21,642 nt of DNA from a virus. Shown here piece after piece: positions 452 to 16,509 of this stretch (the stretch's first letter is position 1; the number at the start of each line of letters is the position of its first letter). Under the pieces are notes generated by a model that had not been told where the DNA came from, did no database searches, and saw only the letters and a list, made by a program, of their open reading frames with translations. Position numbers and translations under genes: made by a program. The DNA is taken from IMG/VR virus record IMGVR_UViG_3300004807_000150, positions 1 through 21,642 of that record; one strand, written 5' to 3'.

Positions 452-664
452 TTAAATTTTTGGTGGTTTTCTTGAACCCATTTTCATCATTATAGGGTTA
501 TGTGCTTTCTTTTTTCTAGGTAGATAAACACCAGGTTCTCCACCTTTGCCGCCTGTACCAGCAATAGCACCTGTACTGACTACGTTAGTTGGACCTGCTG
601 AACCTACTGCACCAGCACCCATACCGTCTTCTTGTATGTTCATAAACTGTTTAAATTTAATCAT
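452..664 (-). CDS. Small Gly-rich basic protein with capsid-targeting-like N-terminus
   Basis: A 70-residue protein starting MIKFKQFMNIQED. This start resembles the N-terminal peptide shared by five other genes in the window and the capsid-targeting peptide of T4 internal proteins; I-Q-E at 10-12 fits the T4 prohead-protease preference for I/L-x-E. A Gly/Ala/Ser-rich stretch follows with the motif PTNVV.TGAIAGTG..GEPGV (about 25-47), a pattern I recall from small marine T4-like phage proteins. The tail is Lys/Arg-rich (RKKK, then GSRKPPKI). The ATG is preceded by AAGGAAAATAG, a strong ribosome binding site located inside the upstream gene, which it overlaps by 8 bases. I cannot give an enzymatic role. 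A small packaged head protein is the likeliest reading. Confidence 0.6.
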   Translation of the reverse strand: MIKFKQFMNIQEDGMGAGAVGSAGPTNVVSTGAIAGTGGKGGEPGVYLPRKKKAHNPIMMKMGSRKPPKI

Positions 665-902
665 CTATTTTCCTTGATATTTCGGCCAGTTTAGCAGACA
701 ACTCTTGTAACTCTTTTTTGATATTTAACTTTTCTTCAGTTTCTTCGTGCATGTGCTTAAAATACTGAACTTGTCTTTCTCTTTTTTCAATGCCTGCTTT
801 TGTGCTGGCAGTACCAAGGTTTTTGCCAGTTTTCTTTGAAACCAATTTGTAACCACTGCCAGTTTTGACAATGTGTTCCTTAAAGGTTTTAAAAGTTTTC
901 AT
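657..902 (-). CDS. Small Lys-rich protein with capsid-targeting-like N-terminus
   Basis: I place the start at the ATG at 902, giving 81 residues beginning MKTFKTFKEHI. A longer reading would need a GTG at 914 and adds only four residues inside the upstream gene; the ATG shares one base with the upstream stop (TGATG), which is typical coupling in this genome. Residues about 16-50 contain YKLVSKKTGKNLGT followed by KAGIEKRERQVQYFKH, a short motif I recognise from many tailed-phage proteins of unknown function. It may be a small nucleic-acid or virion-associated domain. The C-terminal 30 residues are a charged amphipathic helix likely to form a coiled coil. It sits second in a row of four small genes with the same N-terminal peptide and is probably a packaged head protein. 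Confidence 0.65.
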   Translation of the reverse strand: MKTFKTFKEHIVKTGSGYKLVSKKTGKNLGTASTKAGIEKRERQVQYFKHMHEETEEKLNIKKELQELSAKLAEISRKIDD

Positions 903-1696
903 CAGCAGTTCCACTTTCTTAGTGCCAAGGCTTTACGAGTTGGTTTACCATTTGGCTTCTTCATTGGACCTTTCATGCCACCCATACGAGCACAGAAAGA
1001 CTTTCTACGTTTTGCAGCTTTAGAACCTGGTTTTAGTTTTGATGGTGGTGTTGTTACTGCCATGCTCAACTTAGAACCTGGATGTTCTCTGCGATAAGAA
1101 GCAATACCCTTACGGTTCAAACCACCTTTGGGGTCTTTACCTGCACTTCTTTGCCATGCGGCCGACTCATACAATTCTTCATCCGATACGTCATCAAGGT
1201 CTTCCCAAATAACTTCCGGATCAATATTATTGGCTTCTGCAATTTCCATGACAAGTCCTTCAACTACATCGAACATTGCATCTGGATTGTGTTCTTCTTT
1301 AAGTTCACTACGCATGTAATTGGCAACAGTCATGATGTAGTCTTCTGCTAATGTAATCTTAGATTCAACCCATTCTGGCAAATCTGTTTTCTCACCAATC
1401 AAGTCCATCATTTCTTGTGCATTATGCATGATGGTACGTAATTGGTTAACTGCCATGTATGGGTCAGCATATTCTGGATCTTTAGTTTCTTCTGTGACTT
1501 CTTCTTTGGTACTTCTCCAGCCACCACCCATTGCTTTATATTTTTTAGATGCCCAACCGTTAGCGTAAGCAGAAGGATAAACAGCAAACTTAGATTTAGC
1601 TGCAGCCTTAGCACGAGCCCATTTTTCTGGACTTGTTGGAACATTCTTTTCTTCTAAATCTACAACTTCTTCACGAAATGTTCTAAGTGTTTTCAT
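902..1696 (-). CDS. Three-module phage protein, C-terminal DUF6321-like, packaged-protein N-terminus
   Basis: 264 residues, start MKTLRTFREEVVDLEEK, which fits the shared capsid-targeting-like peptide; L-E-E at 14-16 is a possible prohead-protease site. Three modules follow. Residues about 22-61 carry SPEKWARAKAAAKSKF then PSAYANGWASKKYKAMGGGWR, a short domain common in phages. Residues about 79-132 are a helical segment (NQLRTIMHNAQEMMDLI, then EWVESKITLAEDYI) typical of another small phage domain. Residues about 179-264 carry WQRSAGKDPKGGLN, SFCARMGGMKGPMKK and the final ALRKWNC, which I associate with DUF6321. The C-terminal third is very basic, consistent with DNA contact in the head. The ATG overlaps the previous stop by one base (TAATG) and has AAGGGAACAATA before it. 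The biochemical function is unknown; module recognition is by memory of motifs. Confidence 0.7.
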   Translation of the reverse strand: MKTLRTFREEVVDLEEKNVPTSPEKWARAKAAAKSKFAVYPSAYANGWASKKYKAMGGGWRSTKEEVTEETKDPEYADPYMAVNQLRTIMHNAQEMMDLIGEKTDLPEWVESKITLAEDYIMTVANYMRSELKEEHNPDAMFDVVEGLVMEIAEANNIDPEVIWEDLDDVSDEELYESAAWQRSAGKDPKGGLNRKGIASYRREHPGSKLSMAVTTPPSKLKPGSKAAKRRKSFCARMGGMKGPMKKPNGKPTRKALALRKWNC

Positions 1697-2337
1697 TATT
1701 GTTCCCTTCTTCTTTCTGCATTACTTTTTCTTAATGGATGGTCAGGATTCTTATAAGGAGTTTTTCTCATTCCTTCTGAATCATAATTTCCTGATTTTTT
1801 CTTTGCTATTGCTGTGGCGGCCGCAATTGCTGCAGCAGCACTTTCTGTCTTAACATTTATAGGTGCACCACGGCGTTCTGGATTTGGATCCTCACGGCGT
1901 TTTCTTTGTGCAGCTTTTGCTCTACCTTCTTTACCGAGTGCGTTTGCTTTTGCTCTAGGTAGACATTTTGGTTTACCTTCACCTGGATCTCTGGCACAAT
2001 GACCTTTGACATTACCTTTGGTGTCCATGCGAACCCAATCTTGCTTAAACCATTTGCGTAAGTCTTCATTAATCCAATCGTCTGGTGTTTTACCGTGTTT
2101 GGATTTAAAATCGTTGTGTAAGTCTTTACCTGTTATGCCATGGTTTTTTGATATCTTAGTCATCAATTCATCAATTGTGTGATAATCATGACTATCTAAT
2201 TGTTTCAAACCATCTTCTAATTCTTTTACATGGTCTTCTTTGGTGCAGCTACCTGGAGAATATGGAGCTTTACCAGGTACTGGTCTGTAACCTGGCCAAC
2301 ATCTACTTTTTTCTCTAATCTGTTTAAAAGTTTTCAT
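1696..2337 (-). CDS. Basic Cys-containing phage protein, DUF5872-like, packaged-protein N-terminus
   Basis: 213 residues, start MKTFKQIREKSRCWPGY, again the shared N-terminal peptide, with I-R-E at 7-9 fitting the I/L-x-E cleavage preference. A small cysteine motif (CWPGYRPVPG then SPGSC, 13-31) is followed by a helical region (about 33-88). Next comes a conserved-looking segment (about 89-150) with KWFKQDWVRMDTKGNVKG, CARDPGEGKPKCLP and GKEGRAKAAQRKRREDP, which resembles DUF5872-type phage proteins. An Ala-rich stretch (AAAAIAAATAIAKKK) and a basic tail end it. Paired cysteines and the strong positive charge suggest a small nucleic-acid-binding or metal-binding fold, but I see no catalytic signature. 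It starts inside the ATGA overlap with the upstream gene, so translation is probably coupled. Confidence 0.65.
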   Translation of the reverse strand: MKTFKQIREKSRCWPGYRPVPGKAPYSPGSCTKEDHVKELEDGLKQLDSHDYHTIDELMTKISKNHGITGKDLHNDFKSKHGKTPDDWINEDLRKWFKQDWVRMDTKGNVKGHCARDPGEGKPKCLPRAKANALGKEGRAKAAQRKRREDPNPERRGAPINVKTESAAAAIAAATAIAKKKSGNYDSEGMRKTPYKNPDHPLRKSNAERRREQ

Positions 2338-2720
2338 ATCTTTCTCAGTATATCTGCAACTCTCATATCTACTGGAATAACATCTGTTGTTATATTCTTA
2401 CCCCTAATACCATTAACATTTTCTGGCAATATGTTCAAATAAAGCAAAAATGTCTTCAATACATCGTAATCCTTCTCATCGGTCCTAAAAAACAATATTC
2501 TTGCTGTAGCTTCAGGTCCAAAAACATTATTCAAAAGAATGATATGATTTAGAATCAATCTCTCTTTAAGACTTTTGGTAATTTTATACCTACGAAATAG
2601 TCTCTTGAGATACTTGGTTCTCTTCAAGTCTCCTTCAAATTCTGACATAAGGCAGTTTGGAGATGTATAACACTTTGCCGCATACATCACAAAATTATCT
2701 TCATTCAATTCATCAAACAT
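2334..2720 (-). CDS. Conserved small T4-like phage protein (DUF7207-like)
   Basis: 128 residues, start MFDELNEDNFVMYAAKCYTS. The pattern EFEGDLKRTKYLKRLFRRY, then LKERLILNHIILLNNVFG, then ATARILFF and a C-terminal LKTFLLYLNILPE is one I recognise from a conserved single-domain protein of marine T4-like phages and relatives, usually without assigned function. It is predicted to be all-helical and soluble. Unlike its neighbours it does not carry the capsid-targeting-like N-terminus, so it is probably not cargo of the same class. Its ATG has no Shine-Dalgarno sequence at normal distance; AAGGA lies 21 bases upstream with a CUUCGG hairpin between (see the separate entry). Its stop overlaps the next start (ATGA). 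Confidence 0.7.
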   Translation of the reverse strand: MFDELNEDNFVMYAAKCYTSPNCLMSEFEGDLKRTKYLKRLFRRYKITKSLKERLILNHIILLNNVFGPEATARILFFRTDEKDYDVLKTFLLYLNILPENVNGIRGKNITTDVIPVDMRVADILRKI

Positions 2721-2746
2721 AATGTTGGGGCCGAAGCCCCATCCTT
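2720..2746 (-). promoter_or_regulatory. Hairpin-bridged ribosome binding site (CUUCGG tetraloop)
   Basis: Read on the minus strand, AAGGA (2746-2742) is followed by TGGGGC-TTCG-GCCCCA (2741-2726), then ACATT and the ATG at 2720. The stem has six pairs and the exceptionally stable C(UUCG)G loop. Linearly the Shine-Dalgarno is 21 bases from the ATG, which is too far; with the stem folded only about five bases separate them. The same arrangement is documented in T4 for genes 25 and 38. The hairpin has no U-tract, so it is a poor intrinsic terminator. Confidence 0.7.
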
Positions 2747-2747
2747 A

Positions 2748-3374
2748 TTATAGACCAGTGAATGCTTGACCCCAGCTAGTATTAGCTGAGTTTGTATTTG
2801 CAGCAGTTGGGCTAGCCAAGGCAACTAATGTTTCTTTGATATAACGCACAGAACCATCATTGTTGGTTTTCTTTTGAATGTGAACCCAACCAGGAACAAC
2901 ATCACCTAAGGCAACAGTATTGTTTGCCAAACGTGTTGGTGTAACTAAAATTGTATCTGCACCATATGTTTTGGTCATTGTTTTGTTTGTGTTATAAACA
3001 ATACCTTTATCAAACTCAACACCAAAACCAGCACTTACAGTATTAAATAAAGCTGGTGTTAGTGTAACTGTGTTGCCACTTATAGAAGCAACAGTTGTGT
3101 TCGAAGCAAAGAAACCGGGAATACCATTGCCTGCTTGGCCACCTTTGTTATCACCAAATCCGTTGGCCCAGAAATAAACGTATTGACCGGCAGTAATACC
3201 GATGTTTGCTACGTTATTTGCGCCGCCATCCAAATAATTGATACTGATGATGGTATTTCCTGAAGTGTTACCTGCAAAAACAGTTGCTTGAACATTTTCT
3301 CTGGTGACTCTTACAGTATCCCATTTTGGTTTGCCTTGGTTACTATTTGCGTCTGTATTTTTCCACGATGACAT
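2748..3374 (-). CDS. Probable virion surface/structural protein
   Basis: 208 residues, start MSSWKNTDANSNQGKPKWDTV. The N-terminus (SSWKN.D....KPKW) and the C-terminal segment PGWVHIQKKTNNDGSVRYIK-ETLVAL (about 161-187) match my memory of abundant virion proteins in marine T4-like phages. The middle is Asn/Thr/Gly/Val-rich with alternating hydrophobic residues, as expected for a beta-sandwich; there is no signal peptide, membrane segment or catalytic motif. A decoration-like or other capsid surface role is my inference; a tail or fibre role is possible. Expression fits a late, abundant product: the gene has its own late-promoter-like motif in the 36-base gap upstream and a near-ideal TTTAAGGAGATAAAA-ATG start region. 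It is the most Asn/Thr-rich, least charged protein in a block of highly charged ones. Confidence 0.6.
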   Translation of the reverse strand: MSSWKNTDANSNQGKPKWDTVRVTRENVQATVFAGNTSGNTIISINYLDGGANNVANIGITAGQYVYFWANGFGDNKGGQAGNGIPGFFASNTTVASISGNTVTLTPALFNTVSAGFGVEFDKGIVYNTNKTMTKTYGADTILVTPTRLANNTVALGDVVPGWVHIQKKTNNDGSVRYIKETLVALASPTAANTNSANTSWGQAFTGL

Positions 3375-3401
3375 TTTTATCTCCTTAAAGGGTAATCTAT
3401 C

Positions 3402-3409
3402 TATTTATT
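3402..3409 (-). promoter_or_regulatory. Late-promoter-like motif AATAAATA
   Basis: CAATAAATAG on the minus strand directly follows the stop codon of the upstream gene and lies 27 bases before the ATG at 3374. It differs from the T4 late promoter TATAAATA by one base and fits the NATAAATA form reported for cyanophage late promoters. It is followed by a strong AAGGAG, as expected before a structural gene. Confidence 0.6.
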
Positions 3410-3410
3410 G

Positions 3411-4244
3411 TTATTGTTTTTTGCCTGTATTTGTGGCAATATAGTCTGGTTGTTTACTACGATTTTTCAACATTGGGTCAATTTCAATCGTATCTCGTTT
3501 CTCACCAGTTAAAGTTGTACCACCTTTAAGGATCATACGAGCATTGGTTCCCTTTTCATCACTATCATTCACCTCAGTCTTTTTAATGACTTTTGGTTGT
3601 TTAACATCGGTACCTGGACCTTTGTCATCCTTTTCGTGGTCATACAAGTCTTCTTTTAGTCTATGTTTTGCATAGATTTCTTTGACCATTTTAGCAGCTT
3701 TTGTTCTTTTTGGTGAAGCAACATCATTGGTAGTGTTAGCACCATCAAAAGGAGATTGTGTCGCACATTGTGGATCGTTGATATTGTCTTCTTTTTGCAT
3801 TGTATGTTTCATACTTCCTGCTGGTGTTGGTACCGCATAGTGTGAAGCTGCTTTGTCTAGTTGACGTTTTCTTTTCAAAGTCGGAGACTTGGAAATTTCA
3901 GAACGAGTTTCTGGAGCTCCAGTATGTGGGCCATTATACTTTGTTGTCAAATCCTCATTGACTTCATCTTCTTCATAAATTCCATGGTCACGTTTCCATT
4001 TTTCATATTCGCCTTTTTTAGATTGTGCAACTCTTTGGTTCTTACTGACATAATCAATGTTGTAACCTTTAGATTTGTAGAATCTTGAAAGTAAGTCTGC
4101 ACGGCGAGATGTGACATTTTCAGGCAAACCAATGCCACCACCATCACCTGTGGTGGACCATTGGTCCCATGGATTTTTTCCAAAAGATGGTTTGACTTCA
4201 GTCTTTTTGACGATGCCTTTAACCAACTCTTTTGCTTTAGTCAT
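3411..4244 (-). CDS. Charged head-associated-type protein of unknown function
   Basis: 277 residues, start MTKAKELVKGIVKKTEVKPS. Residues about 22-92 (GKNPWDQW, then LLSRFYKSKGYNIDYVSKNQRVAQSKKGEYEKWKRDHG) match a recurrent marine T4-like phage motif of the type SKGxNxxxxSKxxxxAxSKxxxFxxWKxxH, seen in head- or virion-associated proteins. The rest is polar, Lys/Asp/Thr-rich and probably largely disordered (about 93-277), with no membrane segment or enzyme motif. It overlaps the preceding long charged gene by 8 bases and is separated from the next, surface-protein gene by a late-promoter-like motif. A scaffold, core or packaged protein is plausible; this is inference from composition and neighbours. 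Confidence 0.55.
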   Translation of the reverse strand: MTKAKELVKGIVKKTEVKPSFGKNPWDQWSTTGDGGGIGLPENVTSRRADLLSRFYKSKGYNIDYVSKNQRVAQSKKGEYEKWKRDHGIYEEDEVNEDLTTKYNGPHTGAPETRSEISKSPTLKRKRQLDKAASHYAVPTPAGSMKHTMQKEDNINDPQCATQSPFDGANTTNDVASPKRTKAAKMVKEIYAKHRLKEDLYDHEKDDKGPGTDVKQPKVIKKTEVNDSDEKGTNARMILKGGTTLTGEKRDTIEIDPMLKNRSKQPDYIATNTGKKQ

Positions 4245-5688
4245 CTTTCTTTTCCTCAGAAGTACCTAATTTACCCATCATAGTTTCGTTTCTAATCTTT
4301 TTGAAAGATTTACGAGCCAACTCTTTTGCAACTTCCATTGGTGAAGTTTTTTCTTCTTCTTCAACATTCAACTTAACTTTGTAAGAAAGTGGTTGATTGT
4401 GGTAATCAGCATGAACTTTTTGGCGACCTTTTAATGTGTCAACAGTTTTGGTTTTCATGTTTTCACCTGGATCAATACGAACATCATCCTCTTCACTCAT
4501 TGTGCTAATGCCGCCAATGTCTTCTTTTTTAGTTTTTTTTACATTCATTTTATGGGCTTCTTCATGGTGCATACCCATTTCTTCCATTTCCATGCAATGT
4601 CCTTCATGGCAGTCACATAGATGTTTTTCTGCTTCTTCACAGGTTTTGTGACCAATCATTTCTTTCATTGTTGGGTGGTGAATGTAAGCCCATTTTGTTT
4701 TTCCAGTATGTCTGCCAGAAGAACTAATATCATGGTACTCATGGATTTCACCAATCTTTTTACCCTTGTGATATGCATGTAATACCTGAATCGTATCAGG
4801 ATGGTGATGCATTCCATGTTCTCTCTTATATTCTAACTCTTCTTGTAAGTTAGCAAACTCTTCTTTCATGGCTTGCTTAGTAGCAGTAGCATACATTACA
4901 TTCTTTGCACGGTCACCATAACGGTCTTTGAAACCAGCCATGCCTTTTTTCATAGACATAACAATCTTTTCACGTTTTTCTTTTTCAGAAGGAGTCATGT
5001 GACGTTCTTCATCAAGGTCAGTTTCTTTATGACCTTTGTGCATTGATTTTTCGTGTTTGTGAACTTCTTTATCAGCAATTTTCTTTGCTTCTGGTTTAGT
5101 TACATACTTTCCAGTTTCTTCACCCATTGAATGTTTAGACAAATGAGTTTCTTTTTCTTCTTCTTTCTTCAAAGCAGAAGGTTTGACCATTTTCTTGACA
5201 AGTGCTTTATCTTCTTTCTCGTCAGGATGGTCTTCTTCTTTCATTGCTTTCTTGGTGTATACATCACCAGTAGAAGTCTTTTTGTGTTCATGGCCAGTCA
5301 ATTCGCCTTTTTTCTTAGGCATTTGACTCATGTATTTGCCTTTTAAAACATCAAAAGGATTAGATGATTTTTTCATTTCATCTTCTTCTCTAACGTCAGC
5401 TGAATGTCCAGACGCTGCGGCTTTGTCATCTCTTTTTTTGTAAATCTGGCCGCCAATTTTTTCTGGAGGAACCATGCCTTCTGCGTGTGGTTTTGCTGTA
5501 ACAGGATATTTCTTACCTTGGAATTCAAAGTGAGATTGTCCTGCTTTCTTAGCAGCATGAGCAGCCATATGAAAACCAGTCTCATCTAGTTCTGGTTCTA
5601 AAAGCATCTTTTTCTTCTTTTCGTCTGCTTCCAAGATTGATTTTGTTACGTCAATCAAGGCTTGTGACACTAGAGATTTGGTAAACAT
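4237..5688 (-). CDS. Long Lys/Glu/His-rich protein, probable head core or packaged protein
   Basis: 483 residues, start MFTKSLVSQALIDVTKSILEAD. I-L-E|A at 18-21 is a very good match to the T4 prohead-protease site. Recognisable pieces are GFHMAAHAAKKAGQSHFEFQ and KKYPVT (38-64), a short motif common in marine T4-like phages; a long Lys/Glu-rich region (about 85-240) that looks disordered or helical; RYGDRAKNVMYATATKQAMK (256-275), a helix recurring in many T4-like virion-associated proteins; and a His-rich part (291-380) with clustered Cys and His. No enzyme signature is visible. The composition resembles prohead core and internal proteins. The ATG directly abuts the upstream stop (TAAATG) and has GGAGTAAAATAA before it. 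The exact virion role is not determinable here. Confidence 0.6.
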   Translation of the reverse strand: MFTKSLVSQALIDVTKSILEADEKKKKMLLEPELDETGFHMAAHAAKKAGQSHFEFQGKKYPVTAKPHAEGMVPPEKIGGQIYKKRDDKAAASGHSADVREEDEMKKSSNPFDVLKGKYMSQMPKKKGELTGHEHKKTSTGDVYTKKAMKEEDHPDEKEDKALVKKMVKPSALKKEEEKETHLSKHSMGEETGKYVTKPEAKKIADKEVHKHEKSMHKGHKETDLDEERHMTPSEKEKREKIVMSMKKGMAGFKDRYGDRAKNVMYATATKQAMKEEFANLQEELEYKREHGMHHHPDTIQVLHAYHKGKKIGEIHEYHDISSSGRHTGKTKWAYIHHPTMKEMIGHKTCEEAEKHLCDCHEGHCMEMEEMGMHHEEAHKMNVKKTKKEDIGGISTMSEEDDVRIDPGENMKTKTVDTLKGRQKVHADYHNQPLSYKVKLNVEEEEKTSPMEVAKELARKSFKKIRNETMMGKLGTSEEKKDD

Positions 5689-7491
5689 TTATTTTACTCC
5701 TGTTTTCTTCTTTTTGATTGTTATACCCGATTGGCCAAATTTTTCAGATGGCTTAACGAAGTCTTCCTTATTACTAGCACCACCAAGAGTGCCACCTACA
5801 CCAGAATCTCCTTGACCAAAATCAAAGATTGATTCCTTAAACTTTTTTAATTTCTTATTTTTTTCAGCTAACGGGTTGGGGTTAACACCTCTTGGTTTAC
5901 CCGCATAATCTGCAACATCATCATTACTGTATTCTGTTTCTTCACGGTATGTAGAATCTCCTAAACCTGCGCCAGCAGAAGCACTTGTTCCTGCTGCTCT
6001 TGAATTCATTGTTTGGCCAATACCATCGACACTGCCTAATTTTGCAGAATTTAAAGAACGGTCACCCAATTTTTTTCTTCTGACACTATCAGCATCTTTG
6101 TTGAAATTTGCCACTTTAGGTTCTGGCATTTTAATCATTTTTTGTGCATCTTCTGTATATGTATTACCTCCGCCAATTTTAGGCATGTAATCACTATTTT
6201 GTTTGATATCACCATCTCTAACATCATCTCTACGACCTAATTTTGCAGCAAATTGCATAACAGGACTATTGTTGTCCTTCAGTACATTCAAACCTCTGTC
6301 TTTTAGATTTGATTTCTGAATAGATTTTGCACCTTCATAAATTTGTAAAAATCTATTGGAACTTGTATAATGAATAGAACCATTGTCCAAAAACTTTGTT
6401 GTTTCTGTGAATAGTTCAGAGATATCACTAACTTTATCTTCTAGATTTCCAGTGTTATCAAAACGAGAGAAACTTTCAAATAATTCCGAAAAATGTGCAA
6501 TATTCTTTTGTGCTTCTGTCCAACGAGCGTGACGAGTTGATTCAACCATCATTCTGGACAATAATGTGTTTCTTTCTTGGCTTACTTTGTCGGTTGTATC
6601 AACAAAAACCATCATGGTGTTATAACCCAATTCTTCCAATTCTTCTTTGATTTGGGAAATCTTTTCATAATCATCGGCAGGTCCATTAATAATAAGTGGA
6701 CCACGTTGACGAATTGCTTCCATCTTAGGATTCATAGAACGCATAGCCAACTTGTGCTTGTCGTTCATGATATCCATAACTTGTTGGAAGTTCAACTCCA
6801 CAATGTTTTGTTCTGCGATACACTCACGAATAACAACGTCTTTACCAGAACCAGGACCACCAGTAACAAAGATGGCTTTACCTTGTCCACGATTGGTAGA
6901 TTCATGTAGGCCCATACCTTTAGTTACATCGTGGAACAATTCTGTTGCATGTTCCGGATGTTTTTGTATGTTTGATGGTAGATTCTTTTTGAATTCTTTA
7001 AAGTTACCATTTTTAACGTGGTTACGCATATCGGTACCAGAAATACCTTGTTTACGTTCACCTGTTGATTGTTGTTCAATGTGGTCAAACTTAAAGTAAC
7101 CATGGCGGCCTTCTACACCATTATACTTTTTCAACAAGTGATAATTTGCTGAGGCGTCTTCACCAGAAGCAACGATAGCATGATTGTAACCTTTTTTGTG
7201 CATTTCTGCCGCATGATGTAATAGACCAGGTGCTTCTTTTGATGCTGGAACAATATTTGCATCTGGAAAAGCACGTTTGATGTGCTTCATTTTTGTTTTG
7301 ATATCTAACGGATTCTTTTTGGCATCATGAGCGTGCGAAGCCACAATAATGTGGTCAGCATTATTTTTCTTGGCCAAAGCTTGAATGCCTTTGACATTTT
7401 CCTCATGACCCTTAGTAGGTGGGTTCATGCGGCCAATTGCCATGACAATCGACTTGGTCTTTTCTTCTACTAATTGTCTAAATGATTTCAT
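5689..7491 (-). CDS. NMNAT-like nucleotidyltransferase fused to P-loop kinase, packaged-protein N-terminus
   Basis: 600 residues, start MKSFRQLVEEKTK (shared capsid-targeting-like peptide; L-V-E at 7-9). Residues about 14-160 form an HxGH-type nucleotidyltransferase domain: GRMNPPTKGHEE (20-31) carries the TxGH form of the motif, and ISGTDMR (150-156) corresponds to the C-terminal ISxTxxR signature of NMN/pantetheine-phosphate adenylyltransferases. Residues about 205-345 form a P-loop kinase-like domain: Walker A GGPGSGKD (211-218), an LIING strand near 266-270 and an Arg/Glu-rich lid region. The last about 230 residues are polar and poorly defined. The order nucleotidyltransferase-kinase recalls NadR-type NAD salvage proteins, but the substrate cannot be read from sequence; transfer to another nucleotide or to RNA is possible. 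It overlaps its upstream neighbour by ATGA. Homologous fusions occur in marine T4-like phages. Confidence 0.75.
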   Translation of the reverse strand: MKSFRQLVEEKTKSIVMAIGRMNPPTKGHEENVKGIQALAKKNNADHIIVASHAHDAKKNPLDIKTKMKHIKRAFPDANIVPASKEAPGLLHHAAEMHKKGYNHAIVASGEDASANYHLLKKYNGVEGRHGYFKFDHIEQQSTGERKQGISGTDMRNHVKNGNFKEFKKNLPSNIQKHPEHATELFHDVTKGMGLHESTNRGQGKAIFVTGGPGSGKDVVIRECIAEQNIVELNFQQVMDIMNDKHKLAMRSMNPKMEAIRQRGPLIINGPADDYEKISQIKEELEELGYNTMMVFVDTTDKVSQERNTLLSRMMVESTRHARWTEAQKNIAHFSELFESFSRFDNTGNLEDKVSDISELFTETTKFLDNGSIHYTSSNRFLQIYEGAKSIQKSNLKDRGLNVLKDNNSPVMQFAAKLGRRDDVRDGDIKQNSDYMPKIGGGNTYTEDAQKMIKMPEPKVANFNKDADSVRRKKLGDRSLNSAKLGSVDGIGQTMNSRAAGTSASAGAGLGDSTYREETEYSNDDVADYAGKPRGVNPNPLAEKNKKLKKFKESIFDFGQGDSGVGGTLGGASNKEDFVKPSEKFGQSGITIKKKKTGVK

Positions 7492-8666
7492 CGTGGTCTT
7501 GCCAAAAAGTTAAGTCTATTGAATTCTTGTCTATCGTTTAGTTTAGATACTCTACCTTTGTGTGTTGCAACAAAACCTTCTGGTTTAACTGATGCATCAC
7601 CAACTGTATGTTCTAAACCACCTGTATGTCTAGCCAATACATGAACCAAAGAATCTTTGGCTTTCTGTAAATGGTTGTGCATTTTGAAGAAATTTTCATA
7701 ATGTTGAGTATTATTATCTATGTGTTCAATGTGAGCTTTCTTTTCTGCTTCTTTTCTAGCAATTGCCGCAGGTGTTTTGACCTTTGCAATGTCTTTGTCA
7801 TATTTTGTTTCAATAGATTTTTTGAGTCCAGCAACGCTTGGTTTCTCACCAGTTCTGATAGTCTGGTTAATATGTGTCTCTATAGGACCACCAGCATTAC
7901 GGTGTGGTTCTGTTGCTGTATACATTTGTTTACCATGTAGGTCATGTAATGCTTGTGCTGATGCCAAATGGTGATGAAATTGGTCATCATCATGTTTTGA
8001 CATCATAACTTTAGATGTGTCGTGACCAGGTTCTCTGTGGTACACATCTGCATGGTTTTTAAATCCAGACAAATCTGGATGAAAGTCAGCCTTCATATCC
8101 GCTAAAGTTTTTCCATGGTATTGTGTATGTGTGTATACACCAATCTTGGCTTTACGAATTTTCTTACCTTCTTCTGAGTCTTTAGGTGCAGAATAGTTAA
8201 TTGTATTTGGTTTGAAATGAACTCTACCATCATGTTCAGTCTTATCACCATGGCCGAACATCATATCACCTTGATAAACACCAGTTTTTGGTGCAACTTT
8301 TGGTAAATGATGCAATGCGTCTTTTAGTTTGGCCACAAGACCTGGTGCATGGCCATGGTTCATTTCAATGTCTTTATCCGAGTAATTAACTTTTGGATTT
8401 ACATTAAATGCAGATTTGGATGCCACAAAGAACTTACCTGTCTCTGGATGATGACCATAAACAATACTTGGTGAACCATCATGTTTCATTGTCAAAGTAG
8501 GATCATTCTTACCTGCTTTGATATGTTTTCTCACTTGATTCAACACTCCAACTGCGTGATTAAAGCCTTCCGCACCATCATGGATGGCATGGTCTTCCAC
8601 ATGCGTGATGTGTTTTAGCTTGGACTCGTCAGCTTCCTCTTTGAGGAGGGATTTGAAACTTCTCAT
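7488..8666 (-). CDS. DUF6267-like protein with ligase-type KxDG motif, packaged-protein N-terminus
   Basis: 392 residues, start MRSFKSLLKEEADESK, the shared N-terminal peptide with L-K-E at 8-10. I recognise the family (DUF6267-type) from T4-like marine phages. The core reads TMKHDGSPSIVYG (59-71), FFVASKSAFN (79-88), GVYQGDMMFG (129-138), then FKPNTINYS (151-159) and KIGVYTHTQYHG (174-185). KHDG at 61-64 fits motif I (KxDG) of the covalent nucleotidyltransferases (DNA/RNA ligases, capping enzymes), and my memory is that relatives keep K-x-D-G. A ligase or guanylyltransferase-like fold is therefore inferred, not established. The C-terminal half is His/Lys-rich and helical. It is the first gene after an exact late promoter and overlaps the next gene by ATGA; AAAGGT precedes the ATG. 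Confidence 0.65.
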   Translation of the reverse strand: MRSFKSLLKEEADESKLKHITHVEDHAIHDGAEGFNHAVGVLNQVRKHIKAGKNDPTLTMKHDGSPSIVYGHHPETGKFFVASKSAFNVNPKVNYSDKDIEMNHGHAPGLVAKLKDALHHLPKVAPKTGVYQGDMMFGHGDKTEHDGRVHFKPNTINYSAPKDSEEGKKIRKAKIGVYTHTQYHGKTLADMKADFHPDLSGFKNHADVYHREPGHDTSKVMMSKHDDDQFHHHLASAQALHDLHGKQMYTATEPHRNAGGPIETHINQTIRTGEKPSVAGLKKSIETKYDKDIAKVKTPAAIARKEAEKKAHIEHIDNNTQHYENFFKMHNHLQKAKDSLVHVLARHTGGLEHTVGDASVKPEGFVATHKGRVSKLNDRQEFNRLNFLARPR

Positions 8667-8708: not shown

Positions 8709-8716
8709 TATTTATA
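8709..8716 (-). promoter_or_regulatory. T4-type late promoter TATAAATA (exact)
   Basis: The minus strand reads TATAAATA 42 bases before the ATG at 8666, in the longest non-coding gap of the window. It is an exact match to the T4 late consensus recognised by gp55-type sigma factor. It sits inside a perfect inverted repeat (8705-8722, AAGTTAT-TTAT-ATAACTT). It would drive the block of head-type genes from 8666 leftward and separate their expression from the sugar genes. Confidence 0.75.
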
Positions 8717-8768: not shown

Positions 8769-9455
8769 TCAATATTTTTCGACTTGACCGTTACCAGCTA
8801 ACCAACCAGTACAATGAATTGTATCAAATTCTACCAAATATTCTTTTGGAATGTTGACAAAATGAGCATGTTCGAAATCCATGAATGTAAATAGTGGCAA
8901 GTTTTTCTGTGTTACTTCTAAGTAATTATCAATTAATGATGGGCAAAAAGAAAACATTCTGGTGATTAGAAGGTCTGTTGCACCATGTGTTACTTGCGAC
9001 ATCCATGTTGGAATACGTTTTTTGAACACGTATTTACCAAACATGTCATCATACTCATTAATATTAAAACCATCTTCCAAGACAGAACGACCAGATATCT
9101 TAAAGATTCTTTTTACATCTTTTAGAATTGGTTGTTGTTTTAGTAAGATGAATGCGTTGAATAACAAAGCACTCTCAGCCCAAGATTGCATACCTTTAGA
9201 AGAATATTCATTTACTTGTGGTACTTTATTCATATCCATGAAATAGTTACATTTAGAATAAAGTAATTCTAATTCTTCTGTTGTGAAAGTAATCACGGAT
9301 GCATCAGCCAAAATAATGATGGCTTCCGGAACTTTACTTCTGATGGAATCCAAAGTTATAATAGTTTGTTCAAATCTTTGTTGGTGATTCCAAAACCTAG
9401 TATTCAGTGATTTGATTGCTGAAGTTACAAAAAATAGGTTTTTATTTGGTATCAT
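8769..9455 (-). CDS. GT-A-like glycosyltransferase-related protein
   Basis: 228 residues, start MIPNKNLFFVTSAIKSLNTR. The N-terminal VTSAI plus RFEQTIITLDSIRSKVPEA-IIILAD (about 27-51) looks like the first Rossmann-type half of a GT-A fold. KISGR at 119-123 matches the K-x-S-G-R/Y signature in a family of putative glycosyltransferases from surface-polysaccharide loci, which replaces the usual DxD. There are no membrane segments, so it is presumably cytoplasmic. It is the last gene of the twelve-gene sugar block and overlaps its upstream neighbour by 14 bases; the hairpin follows it. Donor and acceptor are unknown. The GT assignment rests on short motifs and context, so a different WbbJ-like or hypothetical role remains possible. 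Confidence 0.5.
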   Translation of the reverse strand: MIPNKNLFFVTSAIKSLNTRFWNHQQRFEQTIITLDSIRSKVPEAIIILADASVITFTTEELELLYSKCNYFMDMNKVPQVNEYSSKGMQSWAESALLFNAFILLKQQPILKDVKRIFKISGRSVLEDGFNINEYDDMFGKYVFKKRIPTWMSQVTHGATDLLITRMFSFCPSLIDNYLEVTQKNLPLFTFMDFEHAHFVNIPKEYLVEFDTIHCTGWLAGNGQVEKY

Positions 9456-9900
9456 ATTTGTTTCTTAATTTTTCCACATAGTCACTACAAATTCCATAGA
9501 CACCATTATACTCTTTTTCCAAGTCTTTGTCAAATCTTTCCGGCATAACTATGATACTACGTTCTGTAGTTTCTTTTCCTGGATATGTCCAGATATAGTT
9601 ATGGCTAGTTAATGTGAAATCATCTTCTTGGTGCCAAAAATATTGCATATAAATTCTTGTGGTTAACCACTTTAAAGCCTCAAGGTTTTTGGCATGAATC
9701 CATAGACCAGTTTTTTGTAACCATCTTTCATTAATTGCATATTCAGGTTTATTGTGGCCAAGATAGAAAACGGAATCAACCAACCATAAGTCAACTTCAC
9801 AATCATATCCTTCTGCCAAAGACTTTTCTATTTGTTCGGGTTTGTTTTCTAGGTTAAAATTTGGACCTTGTGTTAAACCTCTATGTGCAATAAATTTCAT
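9442..9900 (-). CDS. Minimal GDPD-like phosphodiesterase
   Basis: 152 residues, start MKFIAHRGLTQGPN. It shows the front half of the glycerophosphodiester phosphodiesterase signature: H6-R7, E18-N19, the E35-V-D37 metal pair and H49 (LGHN), followed by WIHAKN at 67-72. The catalytic His pair and metal ligands are therefore present. The usual family length is about 240 residues or more, so the barrel must be abbreviated; the gene is nonetheless intact, with ATGA coupling to the upstream nucleotidyltransferase. There is no signal peptide, so it is cytoplasmic. In this sugar locus it may cleave a glycerol- or alcohol-phosphate diester on a glycan precursor rather than phospholipid-derived substrates. 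Similar short proteins are found in polysaccharide clusters. Substrate is unknown. Confidence 0.6.
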   Translation of the reverse strand: MKFIAHRGLTQGPNFNLENKPEQIEKSLAEGYDCEVDLWLVDSVFYLGHNKPEYAINERWLQKTGLWIHAKNLEALKWLTTRIYMQYFWHQEDDFTLTSHNYIWTYPGKETTERSIIVMPERFDKDLEKEYNGVYGICSDYVEKLRNKYDTK

Positions 9901-10580
9901 ATTTTTAAATTGTTATAGTTAAACCATTCTTGTGAAGTACCAACATCAACATAGTTAAGAGATAGTTTTTCTTTAAATGTGTGTCCAGATTGTAACATCA
10001 CGGCAATCACATCAGACACAAATACTTCTCTTTCTTGTGAAATGGATTCAAAAACCTCTTTATATTCTTTGACTGATTGAAACTTGTAACCACCAAGACA
10101 AAACTTATTTGATACAACTTTCTTCTCTACAATATTATTTACATTTCCATCTGCATCAGTAATGATATAACTTTTGGCTTCAGGTCTATTGAGATTCGGA
10201 TAATCAGCAATATCTGAAACACAAATGTAATTGCCTTCAGTAAGTGTGTGTGTAAAATAACTATCACAGTCTTTTATGATGAATTCATCTTCGCCAATAT
10301 TCTGAAGAATTTGGTATGCAGTATCTGCTGGACCTTTTGTCAACTCTGGAATAATAACAACATTAACTTTGTCACCTAGTTTTTCCTTGATAACTTGTTT
10401 TGAATTGTATTTCTCATTATGTTCTTTGAGTACACCAATTGTAATTGAAAGACCTGCATCCAAATAAGGTTTGATTGCCTTCTCTAACATCAATTTGTTT
10501 TCAAAATCTTCCAACAGATATTTCGGCTTCATATTCGGAAAGCGACTGGAAAGACCTGCAGCCGGTACAATTACTTGCAT
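9897..10580 (-). CDS. Sugar-phosphate nucleotidyltransferase (stand-alone)
   Basis: 227 residues, start MQVIVPAAGLSSRFPNMKPKYLL. The N-terminal AAGLSSRF followed by PKYLLE is the G-x-x-S/G-R-F...PK nucleotide-binding signature of NTP_transferase enzymes such as RfbA, RfbF and HddC, which join NTP and sugar-1-phosphate to give NDP-sugar plus pyrophosphate. KDCDSYF (about 103-109) fits the Mg-binding aspartate, and IVEKKVVSNKFCLGGYKF (about 149-166) the usual sugar-binding region. Its C-terminal part ends YVDVGTSQEWFNYNNL, also typical. It is one of three related nucleotidyltransferases here, and the only one without a fused domain. It follows the HAD-nucleotidyltransferase gene by one base and is coupled by ATGA to the GDPD-like gene. 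Base and sugar specificity are unknown. Confidence 0.75.
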   Translation of the reverse strand: MQVIVPAAGLSSRFPNMKPKYLLEDFENKLMLEKAIKPYLDAGLSITIGVLKEHNEKYNSKQVIKEKLGDKVNVVIIPELTKGPADTAYQILQNIGEDEFIIKDCDSYFTHTLTEGNYICVSDIADYPNLNRPEAKSYIITDADGNVNNIVEKKVVSNKFCLGGYKFQSVKEYKEVFESISQEREVFVSDVIAVMLQSGHTFKEKLSLNYVDVGTSQEWFNYNNLKI

Positions 10581-10581
10581 A

Positions 10582-11958
10582 TTAAACCTTATAATGTTCC
10601 AAGAAATAGTTCAAATCTTCTGGAGTACCAATACCCCACATCTTTTTGATATTCTTGGTTCTAATTTTCTTGCCGTCTTGAATAGCTTCATTGAATACTG
10701 GACAAACATAAAATTCATTGTTTGTACGAATGTTCTTTTCAATCATTTGTTCAGCATACTTGACATAATCACTACCTTGTTTCCAATAGTAGATACCAAC
10801 AGTTGCAAGATTACTGATTGGGTTCTTTTCTGCTACTTCAGATACAAAACCATCTTCACCTAGTTTTGCAAAGGACCATTTGGGGTGTGTTGCCTCAAAA
10901 GTAACAATACCACCATCAATAGAGTCGGCAGTAAATGCATATAGGCATTCATTAGAATTCCATTCAACAAACTGGTCGGAGTTGGCCATCAACAATGGTT
11001 GGTCGTTGTTAATAAGTTCCTTAGCAAGAAGTGTGGTACAAGCCGCACCTTCTGTTAAACCATCAACTTGAATGATATCACAACCTGGTGAAATTAGATT
11101 CAATAATTGTTTTAGATTGTACTTTTCATAATGTTCTTTTTGCACAATGTAGATGAAGTGAGCTTCTATGTTCAAATTTTCAGTTACAACCTGAATCATA
11201 GGTTTACCATCAACCTCAATCAACGGTTTGGGAAAAGTGTAACCCGCTTGTGCAAAACGACTACCTGCACCGGCCATTGGAATCAATACATTCATCTTAT
11301 TATTTCTCCATGGTATATTCAATTGTGTTTGTTTTTTATCAAAAGATTCAATCATATCTATGAATGTATTTCCATGCAATTCATATGCATCTTTGACAGG
11401 ATACAAAATGGCACCAGAGTTGGTTGCACCCTCTCGACCAATATGACTATCTTCTACGATAATTGTATCTTTTGGTAATGCTTTCAATGCAGTCATACAT
11501 TGCCAGTACATTTCTGGAAATGGTTTTGGATATTTCACGTCTTCATTGCTAACGATATAATCCACATACTTTAATACATCCATGGAATTAAGTGAAATCT
11601 TAATTGTTTCACGGATACTATTAGATGCAACTGCAATCTTCCAACCCATAAGGTTGAGTATTCGCATTATATAATGTGCTGATGGATTTTTTGGACATTC
11701 TGGTATTAGTTTGAATGTAGACTTCTGCTTTTCTTTCCAGATATCATCAAAATATTTTGCATCTAGACCTTTTTCTGTGGCCAACATTTGAAGTTTTTTG
11801 GTGGTATTCAAACCATCATATTTTGAGAGATGCTCTTCTCTTGTAATTACAAACTGTTCGCCAGCAACTTTACGAATTGCATCATTAAGAGCTTCATAGT
11901 GTAGTTCACGGGAATCAAGTAAAACGCCATCAAGGTCAAATATAACTAATTTATTCAT
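10582..11958 (-). CDS. HAD phosphatase fused to sugar-phosphate nucleotidyltransferase
   Basis: 458 residues from ATG at 11958, which overlaps the upstream stop (ATGA); an in-frame TTG three codons earlier is less likely. Residues 1-210 are a beta-phosphoglucomutase/phosphatase-type HAD domain: FDLDGVLLDS (nucleophile D8, acid D10), a helical cap, ASNS (111-114), the KPFP lysine (K145) and ED (169-170). Residues 222-458 are a complete NTP_transferase: MNVLIPMAGAGSRF, then FPKPLIEVDGKPM, the N-S-D aspartate region, VAEKNPISNLATVGIYYW and a C-terminal WGIGTPEDLNYFLEHY. The fusion could remove a phosphate from a sugar bisphosphate or phosphosugar and then activate the product at C1. A good internal start lies exactly at M222 (separate entry), so a free nucleotidyltransferase may also be made. 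Specificity is unknown. Confidence 0.8.
   Translation of the reverse strand: MNKLVIFDLDGVLLDSRELHYEALNDAIRKVAGEQFVITREEHLSKYDGLNTTKKLQMLATEKGLDAKYFDDIWKEKQKSTFKLIPECPKNPSAHYIMRILNLMGWKIAVASNSIRETIKISLNSMDVLKYVDYIVSNEDVKYPKPFPEMYWQCMTALKALPKDTIIVEDSHIGREGATNSGAILYPVKDAYELHGNTFIDMIESFDKKQTQLNIPWRNNKMNVLIPMAGAGSRFAQAGYTFPKPLIEVDGKPMIQVVTENLNIEAHFIYIVQKEHYEKYNLKQLLNLISPGCDIIQVDGLTEGAACTTLLAKELINNDQPLLMANSDQFVEWNSNECLYAFTADSIDGGIVTFEATHPKWSFAKLGEDGFVSEVAEKNPISNLATVGIYYWKQGSDYVKYAEQMIEKNIRTNNEFYVCPVFNEAIQDGKKIRTKNIKKMWGIGTPEDLNYFLEHYKV
11293..11309 (-). promoter_or_regulatory. Candidate internal ribosome binding site and start inside the HAD-nucleotidyltransferase gene
   Basis: GGAG (11309-11306) precedes an in-frame ATG (11295-11293) by ten bases. 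The ATG is codon 222, exactly the first residue of the nucleotidyltransferase domain (MNVLIPMAGAG), and initiation there would give a free 237-residue enzyme. The spacing is slightly long, so activity is uncertain. It may also be the relic start of a once separate gene. Confidence 0.45.
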
Positions 11959-12653
11959 TTCTTCCAACTATCATAATCTTCACGAATCAAAGAGTGCCAA
12001 GTACCATTATGTGGTCCTGGTGGAAATGGATTGTTCATGTCAACATATTGTAACTTTGGTCCAAACAAACCATATTCTCGCAAGTTAGCACTCATCATAT
12101 TTTCACCAACAAACTGTGTACCAGCACTGTAATACTTATCTAGGTTCAAAAAAGTTGACATGTATTTGTCCATGTTCTCTTGTGAACTAAATGCAAATTG
12201 GTCATTACCAAAGTCTCTTGTTGGTACCATTCTGCAATTCGGAATATACAACATTTCATTAGGCAATTCACCAAAAGGTATCTTTACGTTTAAAGCATAA
12301 TCTGTTCGGCTACGAATAACCCAATCATATTTTACATTGTTTGTCTTTGAATAATACATCATGGATTCACGACACTTATTCATTGAAAAATACATTGAGT
12401 AAACAAATCTAGCTGGAAACTTTTCTGGATTTGGAACATTGGTATATTTTCTATCAACATCCAATTCAAGTGGTGGTGAAGAAGAATGTATGACTGGTTT
12501 ATACAACTCAATCATCTTATCAACAACATTATCTGCATCCCAAGTATGAAAGAAAATATCTACATCATGATTATCTAATAGATTTTTTCTATAATACTCA
12601 AAACCTCTTTCAACAGAACGAGCTTGACCGGAGAAACATAATGCAATTTTCAT
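11955..12653 (-). CDS. GT-A-like glycosyltransferase-related protein (SGQ...HTWD type)
   Basis: 232 residues, start MKIALCFSGQARSVERGFEY. The start (KIALCFSGQARS, then NHDVDIFFHTWD at 28-39) and DWVIRSRTDYAL (110-121) are typical of a family of putative glycosyltransferases found in marine phages and capsule loci. In these the R-x-R-x-D motif takes the place of DxD. There is no membrane segment. It lies between the nucleotidyltransferase-RpiB gene and the HAD-nucleotidyltransferase gene, with ATGA overlaps on both sides, so it probably uses or serves the sugar they activate. It resembles the 227-residue protein at 14977-15660 in plan (short, M-K-I-A start, T/R-x-D motif near residue 110). The reaction is not established. 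Confidence 0.6.
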   Translation of the reverse strand: MKIALCFSGQARSVERGFEYYRKNLLDNHDVDIFFHTWDADNVVDKMIELYKPVIHSSSPPLELDVDRKYTNVPNPEKFPARFVYSMYFSMNKCRESMMYYSKTNNVKYDWVIRSRTDYALNVKIPFGELPNEMLYIPNCRMVPTRDFGNDQFAFSSQENMDKYMSTFLNLDKYYSAGTQFVGENMMSANLREYGLFGPKLQYVDMNNPFPPGPHNGTWHSLIREDYDSWKK

Positions 12654-13801
12654 TTGAACACCTTATTGAGTCTAGTTAAGTGGCGACCACCATCAAATGT
12701 TGTTTTCAACCAAATGTCAACCATTGCAGAAAACTTTTCTTCATCTACATACTTAGATGGTACCGCAAAGTGATTTGCACAATTGTGTTTGATGGAAAAC
12801 TCAGCCGTATATTCATCAAACGTCAAAGCACTAATTACACCAGACTGACTTGCTGCAATATTGACACCTTGGCCTGAACGACAGAATGCAATACCAAATT
12901 CACAAATATTGTTCCGAATCAACTCTGTGGATTGACTGATGTAATCATAGTAATCACAAGGCTTGTCAACATATGTTCCAACATCAATGTACTTGATACC
13001 TTTTTCATTCAAAACTTTCTTGGCCATTTCTTTTGCGTCAAAACCAGAATGGTCGGATGCAAGTGCAATAGGTTTGTCACCAAATCTGGCAATTACTCTT
13101 TTACGGAAGAATTCAAAACTATCCACATCTCCAAGAACGTGCATCTTTTCAGTTTCAACTGTCACAATCTTTTTACAATCTTTAATCATATGATTGTATA
13201 AAGGTGCAATGTAGAAGTCTTTGTCTGTTGGGTCATTACGCATAACATAGTCTGCATAAGATGTGAACAAGTATGCAGTCTTGAAGTAATAAAGTCCAAC
13301 GTTTGCATATCTTGAGATGACTTGTTTTTCGGCAACACGTGTGACAAATCCGTTAGAATCAATATCACAATAACTGTGGTCTGCACTATTGGCTAAGAAA
13401 GTCAAAAGAAAACCGTCACAATCTGCTGGCGGTTCATTTAACTTAAATGTTGATTGAAAATATACATCAGGTGTATAAATGTATAATGGTAAGTCTTCAT
13501 CAATTAGTTCTCTGGCCTTCAAACACGTTTCTAAAGCACCACGGGTTTCTCCGTCAACAATACAAATTTGAACATCATCACCAAACTTAGACTTCAGAAT
13601 TTCATCAATACCATAATCATAAACATGTTCTAAACGAACCACAAATATCAAATTACAATCTGTAGTATCAATAGAAGACATGGACCAATCAATGATGTGT
13701 TTGTCTTTGGCCATAATCAAAGACTTGGGCATGGTATAACCAGCATCAATGAAGTTTTGTGCTTTGCCAGCAATAGGTAAAATTACATTATACTTTTTCA
13801 T
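12650..13801 (-). CDS. Sugar nucleotidyltransferase fused to RpiB/LacA-like sugar-phosphate isomerase
   Basis: 383 residues, start MKKYNVILPIAGKAQNF, preceded by AGGAAATATA. Residues 1-238 form an NTP_transferase domain closely related to the C-terminal half of the HAD fusion (GYTMPKSLI, VAEKQVISRYANVGLYYF), but the usual G-x-G-x-R-F reads GKAQNF, so the conserved Arg is missing. Residues 243-383 form an RpiB/LacA/LacB domain: IALASDHSGFDAKEMAKKVL (SDHxG at 249-253), VGTY near 274-277, GIAFCRSGQGVNIAAS (C307 where RpiB has its catalytic Cys), HNCANHFAVP and the C-terminal TTFDGGRHLTRLNKV. RpiB-type enzymes interconvert aldose and ketose phosphates such as ribose-5-P/ribulose-5-P. The fusion suggests that one polypeptide isomerises a sugar phosphate and handles its activation. 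It is coupled on both sides within the sugar block. Confidence 0.8.
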   Translation of the reverse strand: MKKYNVILPIAGKAQNFIDAGYTMPKSLIMAKDKHIIDWSMSSIDTTDCNLIFVVRLEHVYDYGIDEILKSKFGDDVQICIVDGETRGALETCLKARELIDEDLPLYIYTPDVYFQSTFKLNEPPADCDGFLLTFLANSADHSYCDIDSNGFVTRVAEKQVISRYANVGLYYFKTAYLFTSYADYVMRNDPTDKDFYIAPLYNHMIKDCKKIVTVETEKMHVLGDVDSFEFFRKRVIARFGDKPIALASDHSGFDAKEMAKKVLNEKGIKYIDVGTYVDKPCDYYDYISQSTELIRNNICEFGIAFCRSGQGVNIAASQSGVISALTFDEYTAEFSIKHNCANHFAVPSKYVDEEKFSAMVDIWLKTTFDGGRHLTRLNKVFK

Positions 13802-16508: not shown

Positions 16509-16509
16509 T

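Follow-up and report, generated by a model that had tools for sequence, protein, structure and literature searches.

The stretch analysed here, referred to as the window, is the whole 21,642-base record IMGVR_UViG_3300004807_000150 from an uncultured virus, in which 26 open reading frames (ORFs) were scored and the genes run on the minus strand. Six proteins of one gene cluster in this window start with a similar short peptide (the tag), which very probably represents a capsid-targeting sequence (CTS) of the phage T4 internal-protein type on packaged, probably injected cargo. The locus is arranged as follows.

20841-21611, minus strand: T4-type replicative helicase gp41, C-terminal part only, at the start of the gene run
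About 8.8-18 kb (8769-17957): sugar-nucleotide island, between gp41 and the tagged cluster
452-8666, minus strand: tagged cluster, after the sugar-nucleotide island

Among cultured phages, relatives of the cluster occur in Kyanoviridae, namely in Pelagibacter phage HTVC008M, in Methylophilales phage Melnitz and in cyanophages, where gp41 and the gp61 primase flank the corresponding genes. The six tagged proteins have ATG starts on the minus strand at 664, 902, 1696, 2337, 7491 and 8666, in full agreement with a preliminary description of this DNA. Their tags are given below, with lengths in amino acids (aa); the arrow marks the putative processing site, and each tag was found by both scorings described further on.

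8637-8666, minus strand: tag MRSFKSLLKE↓E of the 392-aa DUF6267 protein, conserved in 49 relatives
7462-7491, minus strand: tag MKSFRQLVE↓E of the 600-aa protein, conserved in 36 relatives
2308-2337, minus strand: tag MKTFKQIRE↓K of the 213-aa protein (MKTFQEYITE and MVTFKEFITE in relatives)
1667-1696, minus strand: tag MKTLRTFRE↓E of the 264-aa protein
873-902, minus strand: tag MKTFKTFKE of the 81-aa protein
629-664, minus strand: tag MIKFKQFMNIQE↓D of the 70-aa protein, with the site shifted by two residues (MKRFKQFVKED and MKSFKEYIKE in relatives)

Position 4 is F or L in all six proteins. The preliminary description had most copies followed by an I/L-x-E site; a canonical (I/L/V)-x-E triplet is present in the proteins starting at 7491 (LVE), 8666 (LKE), 2337 (IRE) and, shifted, 664 (IQE), but not in those starting at 902 and 1696, where it is F-K-E or F-R-E. 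The tagged proteins fall into different Pfam/PHROG families, and the earlier statement that they are otherwise unrelated mostly stands. It fails for two pairs, since the 213-aa and 264-aa proteins match separate segments of phrog_727 and the 392-aa and 600-aa proteins match separate parts of phrog_455, which indicates that some relatives carry these pairs fused.

Two scorings were applied to the N-termini. The T4-only score (BLOSUM62, residues 2-7) compares a start with the N-termini of IPI, IPII and IPIII only (MKTYQEF, MKTFKEF) and was chosen to avoid circularity. The relatives profile covers ten residues and was built from uncultured relatives only, with five families at equal weight and a score of 5 as the main cut-off. 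The preliminary description had proposed a search for enrichment of the peptide over other proteins, and by the T4-only score the six tagged proteins occupied ranks 1-6 of the 26 window ORFs, scoring 14-26 against 9 for the next best. The same six were the top six by the relatives profile (6.9-19.7, next 3.4), a ranking that is not independent because close relatives of the window were included in the training. For HTVC008M, the four best of 201 ORFs by the T4-only score all lay inside the homologous gp41-gp61 cluster, as did four of the top five in Melnitz (214 ORFs) and the top two of 229 in cyanophage S-SM1. Rank 1 in Melnitz fell outside the cluster, on an unfused kinase whose homologue in the window is a domain of the 600-aa protein. 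In T4 itself the top four of 270 ORFs were IPIII, IPII, IPI and the uncharacterised gp61.1 by the T4-only score, and gp61.1 (20.4), IPIII and IPII (9.1 each) and IPI (8.5) by the profile.

When the three cultured phages were pooled, scores of at least 5 were obtained for 9 of 60 cluster ORFs versus 4 of 584 others (p = 1.6e-7). Cluster enrichment was also seen in G010, a near-complete 180-kb uncultured contig (p = 5.5e-6), and in G002, a 52-kb near relative (p = 4.9e-6); p values for the window and the uncultured contigs are descriptive, as the same families fed the profile. No match at threshold was found in the negative controls T7 (0 of 50 ORFs) and Pelagibacter podophage HTVC010P (0 of 66), and shuffled N-termini reached it in 23 of 18,800 trials.

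The tagged start is kept across more than 150 related loci (94 of DUF6267 and 90 of the 600-aa family) and survives in relatives down to about 30% protein identity. In the DUF6267 alignment (n = 49) the information content peaks at residues 4 (3.99 bits), 7 (3.51), 8 (4.08) and 10 (4.32), with lower values of 1.8-2.5 bits at residues 2, 3, 5, 6 and 9 and more variable positions at 11-15. F4 is found in 46/49 sequences, F/L7 in 45/49, L8 in 47/49 and E10 in 49/49; the 600-aa family (n = 36) has F4 in 36/36, E10 in 34/36 and K2 in at least 90%. In the T4 IPIII peptide, residues 4 and 7 serve head targeting and residues 8 and 10 serve processing (PMC9026906). The conserved residues are thus the positions mapped in T4, and this is the strongest argument that the signal is the same. 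Furthermore, the AlphaFold model of the 392-aa DUF6267 protein has a mean pLDDT (predicted local distance difference test) of 91, with residues 1-15 below 50 and a C-terminal end that is also low, and the predicted folded domain begins near residue 16.

The CTS of IPI, IPII and IPIII was described by Mullaney and Black in 1996 (summarised in PMC9026906 and PMC7697877), and CTS-like sequences have been noted in other T-even phages (PMC9026906). The window peptides share with it a length of about 10 residues, the extreme N-terminal position, the M-K-x-F/Y-x-x-F-I-x-E pattern, carriers that are otherwise unrelated and a gp21-type protease in the relatives' genomes. They differ in belonging to Kyanoviridae-like phages, in being carried by enzymes and in lying in a syntenic gp41-gp61 cluster, and targeting and cleavage here would follow by analogy with T4.

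The preliminary description had put forward the presence of a gp21-type protease as a check. A Pfam search for gp21 found nothing in the window's record and nothing in the control genomes; as the record is a 21.6-kb fragment and the controls were negative too, this search says nothing about the virus. Among long related contigs, gp21 (PF03420) was detected in 5 of 11, and none of the others reaches 78 kb. The annotations of HTVC008M, Melnitz, S-SM1 and cyanophage S-CREM2 include it, and it is present in all five complete T4-like genomes examined. Around residues 52-56, gp23 carries LSE↓A in Melnitz and LTE↓A in S-CREM2, and gp22 is rich in [IL]xE, so that, judged from these sequences, the I/L-x-E rule of gp21 seems to hold in these relatives.

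The same observations bear on whether the peptide could be a permanent docking element, which binds the scaffold or shell, is not removed and holds its protein in the head without injection. The two functions can be separated in T4, with targeting at residues 4 and 7 and processing at residues 8 and 10, and I/L-x-E is missing from the window proteins with starts at 902 and 1696; both points favour such an element. However, the processing residues L8 and E10 are among the most conserved in DUF6267 and the relatives encode gp21, and we regard permanent docking as improbable.

Published virion proteomes provided a comparison with packaged proteins. By the relatives profile, every one of the top six among 219 S-CREM2 proteins appears in the published mass-spectrometry virion list of that phage (PMC10665884): cytidylyltransferase ORF154, APH-like kinase ORF14, SAM hydrolase/lyase ORF6, ORF155, ORF136 and ORF13. 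At a score of 5 and with structural proteins excluded, detected versus undetected counts were 6/0 above the cut-off and 20/167 below it (p = 3.5e-6), with p between 3.5e-6 and 0.002 for thresholds of 4 to 8; some S-CREM2 N-termini had been inspected before the profile was built, but no S-CREM2 sequence was used in it. The T4-only score gave no significant result in a rank test over all S-CREM2 proteins (p = 0.13), and its high scorers ORF83 and ORF185 were not detected in virions. The ten-residue profile was made after that test and performed better. A regular-expression test devised after some N-termini had been seen gave p = 0.001 and does not form part of the main evidence.

In S-SM1 the best profile score belongs to SSM1_190 (MKKFSAFLNE↓A), T4-GC190, which Sullivan et al. 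(PMC3037559) detected in purified virions; the S-SM1 virion list comprises 41 proteins. S-SZBM1 virions contain a homologous nucleotidyltransferase starting MRFRQFIIE↓A, together with two untagged cluster neighbours (PMC9146016). The tagged nucleotidyltransferase family has therefore been detected in three virion proteomes, those of S-SM1, S-CREM2 and S-SZBM1; in the parts covered, the source papers report this detection and propose no targeting signal.

Alternatively, the tagged enzymes could have their role in virion assembly or inside the infected cell, their detection in virions being due to co-purification. This was raised by the S-CREM2 authors themselves, and few nucleotidyltransferase peptides were recovered (3 unique in S-CREM2 and 2 in S-SZBM1). 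Against it, a profile built without virion data picked virion-detected proteins only, 6 of 6 in S-CREM2, and ORF6 and ORF14 were represented by 19 and 21 unique virion peptides. The tag predicts virion membership and supplies new evidence against contamination as the source of the enzymes in cyanophage virions, and co-purification appears very improbable.

A second block of tagged virion proteins lies outside the gp41-gp61 cluster of S-CREM2, at ORF6-ORF15 (L210:3837-13331; SAM lyase, APH-like kinase and ORF13). Past the tag, the S-SM1 cytidyltransferase (L014:1256-2419) and the S-CREM2 kinase (L210:10579-12846) have a second motif in common, GYGRYADPSGNVTHMS and GFGYWADKNTGKITHRS, respectively, and phrog_3561 also matches this region of the S-SM1 cytidyltransferase. 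The sequence similarity suggests a small domain common to cargo.

Several observations weigh against a CTS on virion cargo. Two window proteins lack a canonical site, as described above. The cyanophage DUF6267 homologues SSM1_189 and S-SZBM1 gp135 have no tag, and the untagged S-SZBM1 homologue is not in that phage's virion proteome list (PMC9146016), which indicates that the tag is no invariant part of the family and that cargo sets vary by lineage. Many virion-detected proteins are untagged, and the 'Cas9-like' S-CREM2 virion protein ORF12, which gave no Pfam match at E 0.1, has a tag-like LRFASFMAEA only at residues 17-26. The S-CREM2 authors consider contamination of their CsCl-purified virions possible in part and leave packaged versus contaminant undecided, and the virion literature covered reports no cleaved N-terminus for these cargo proteins. 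T4 Alt, also packaged, starts differently (MELITELFDED); the preliminary description had ascribed the peptide to both the T4 internal proteins and Alt. Alt and P1 DarB, whose signal lies inside its first 30 residues, are injected proteins directed against the host, with head-targeting regions at the N-terminus; they resemble the present proteins as enzyme-sized cargo packaged via the N-terminus and delivered with the DNA, but the peptide is not common to them.

It is scarcely credible that the shared start is a by-product of expression without a role at the protein level, owed to a preferred region of translation initiation or to a recent duplication of the 5' end: the genes are clustered and partly overlapping, their starts are AT-rich and two starts share up to 21 of 27 nucleotides, but several pairs encode identical residues by different codons, and the pattern is still seen where proteins have diverged to 30% identity, recurs on unrelated genes in T4, cyanophages, Pelagibacter and Methylophilales phages, occurs outside the cluster (Melnitz kinase; S-CREM2 ORF6, ORF13 and ORF14) and correlates with virion membership.

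With the T4-mapped columns conserved, the S-CREM2 test and the three proteomes in its support, the capsid-targeting peptide on virion cargo that had been put forward earlier remains the preferred reading. A putative late signal stands before the cluster.

8709-8716, minus strand: TATAAATA, T4-type late promoter element, found nowhere else in the window as an exact copy; the first tagged gene starts about 43 bp further on

A late promoter element is likewise located about 47 bp before the cluster of Melnitz. In the proposed mechanism, the tagged proteins would be made late in infection, and the aromatic or hydrophobic residues 4 and 7 would attach to the scaffold core while the prohead grows, so that the protein is enclosed in the head. 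By analogy with T4, a gp21-type protease would then cut after Glu-9/10 (hydrophobic-x-E), releasing the cargo within the head, from which it would leave together with the DNA at infection. One tag would serve different cargo in different phages; the most likely role of the cargo would be to shield nucleic acids or nucleotide cofactors from host defences early on, or to repair them.

Two tagged proteins had been described as enzyme-like, and this is borne out by a nucleotidyltransferase and a P-loop kinase in one and the ligase-like DUF6267 in the other. The first has the following features.

5689-7491, minus strand: 600-aa protein with a nucleotidyltransferase (about 12-198), a P-loop kinase (about 201-371) and a mostly low-confidence tail
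7405-7434, minus strand: nucleotidyltransferase motif GRMNPPTKGH, with G20, R21, P24, T26, G28 and H29 invariant
6838-6861, minus strand: kinase-domain P-loop GGPGSGKD, conserved in at least 90% of sequences or invariant

The 600-aa protein matches a PHROG cytidyltransferase (E 3e-44). In VIA-align, its nucleotidyltransferase domain aligned with phosphopantetheine adenylyltransferase (PPAT; Z 14.3) and NMN adenylyltransferase (NMNAT; Z 13.3), and its kinase domain was nearest to bacterial polynucleotide kinase (Z 13.2). Residues of the GRxxPPTxGH-type and SGTxMR-type motifs are invariant in the family, with a nucleotidyltransferase fold. The protein is thus predicted to be a cytidylyltransferase/NMNAT-like nucleotidyltransferase, a fold that does not tell its substrates. 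In Melnitz the unfused P-loop kinase noted above (L005:16855-17523) bears its own tag, MKTFAELQEG. The HTVC008M kinase gp129 is a separate gene adjoining the nucleotidyltransferase and is without such a tag.

7488-8666, minus strand: 392-aa DUF6267 protein (Pfam PF19782, E 3e-92), predicted ligase-superfamily nucleotidyltransferase fold
8469-8486, minus strand: KHDGSP, like ligase motif I (KxDG), with K61, D63, G64, S65 and P66 invariant (n = 49)
7569-7580, minus strand: EGFV, like ligase motif IV, with E363, G364 and V366 invariant (n = 49; EG[FY]V in the family)

In VIA-align, the top 50 chains for the DUF6267 model were all RNA, DNA or tRNA ligases, the best with Z 8.7 over 183 residues at 3.8 Å; on the scale that VIA-align itself supplies, values of about 8 may still be background. 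A ligase also headed the ranking of Foldseek alone, with no PDB match at E <= 0.001, and a sequence-profile search against the PDB returned chance-like matches only; VIA-align was the one search to give a coherent ligase signal. The family resembles ATP-dependent RNA/DNA ligases (Naegleria RNA ligase, T4 Rnl1/Rnl2) in giving its best superposition with them and in its invariant KxDG and EG[FY]V, and differs in Z values below 9, identities of mostly 8-15%, a helical insertion between the motifs and a motif V that is not clearly canonical: in the motif V (hKxK) region one invariant lysine (K375) follows EG[FY]V and a second is not evident (n = 49). Because the top rows are uniformly ligases and the motifs are present, a ligase-like fold is likely from the model, and ligase activity is a prediction. 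Directly before DUF6267, the near relative G002 carries an extra tagged gene (L116:1578-2618, contig 20578-21618; 346 aa, MLTFLSFLGE↓D), which is not at that place in the window and gave no PHROG match at E 0.001.

The tag has been described before in T4; its occurrence in the Kyanoviridae lineage, its enzymatic cargo, its extent and its predictive use appear new. A literature search, which left most subscription literature outside, found no report of a CTS in Kyanoviridae, cyanophages or Pelagibacter phages, nor any link to virion enzymes. The sequence rule picks likely cargo from a genome alone, including those of abundant uncultured aquatic phages, predicts an unrecognised T4 internal protein (gp61.1) and suggests that a functionally uncharacterised, ligase-like family is among the injected cargo. 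If true, such phages inject ready-made enzymes along with their DNA. A wider proposal is doubtful as it stands: a single tag of the T4 superfamily would mark an extensive and variable repertoire of enzymes that are injected at time zero, here a nucleic-acid repair kit (DUF6267 as a new ligase family, with the polynucleotide-kinase-like/nucleotidyltransferase protein) that would undo damage by host defences to RNA, DNA or cofactors ahead of any phage gene expression, and gp61.1 would be an overlooked T4 internal protein.

The remaining genes of the cluster are the following.

4237-5688, minus strand: 483-aa untagged protein, conserved I[LM]E↓A/E site at residues 18-21
3411-4244, minus strand: 277-aa untagged protein
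2748-3374, minus strand: 208-aa untagged protein, at the position of the cultured relatives' S-layer-like protein (S-SZBM1_136, in S-SZBM1 virions)
2334-2720, minus strand: 128-aa untagged DUF7207 protein, conserved cluster marker (PF23837, E 3e-37)
1696-2337, minus strand: 213-aa tagged protein, phrog_727 segment
902-1696, minus strand: 264-aa tagged protein, C-terminal DUF6321 (PF19846, E 8e-22)
657-902, minus strand: 81-aa tagged protein, relatives not found among the fetched loci
452-664, minus strand: 70-aa Gly-rich tagged protein, candidate counterpart of T4 gp61.1

The ILE↓A previously pointed out at residues 18-21 of the 483-aa protein is present and is kept as I[LM]E-A/E in 23 relatives. 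The correspondence of the 208-aa protein with the S-layer-like protein is based on gene order and a similar start, with no significant alignment, and the 128-aa DUF7207 protein has tblastn matches in HTVC008M, Melnitz and S-SM1. T4 gp61.1 (MKTFKEFIKEDMVAGDSGG..., L007:18966-19130) has the best profile score of all T4 proteins, above IPI-III, and may be an overlooked internal protein. The 70-aa protein has a similar start, size and Gly-rich body; homology of the two was not established, as a relative of the 70-aa protein (L020) matches phrog_1823 only at E 0.2.

The sugar-nucleotide island contains a HAD and nucleotidyltransferase fusion (10582-11967), a protein with a LacAB/RpiB isomerase domain at its C-terminal end (12650-13801), a PfkB kinase (13788-14462) and a HAD hydrolase (14462-14980). 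Adjoining gp41, a 368-aa protein at 19738-20844 matches the DruA (Druantia) Pfam family (E 6e-7) and, over its full length, phrog_19197.

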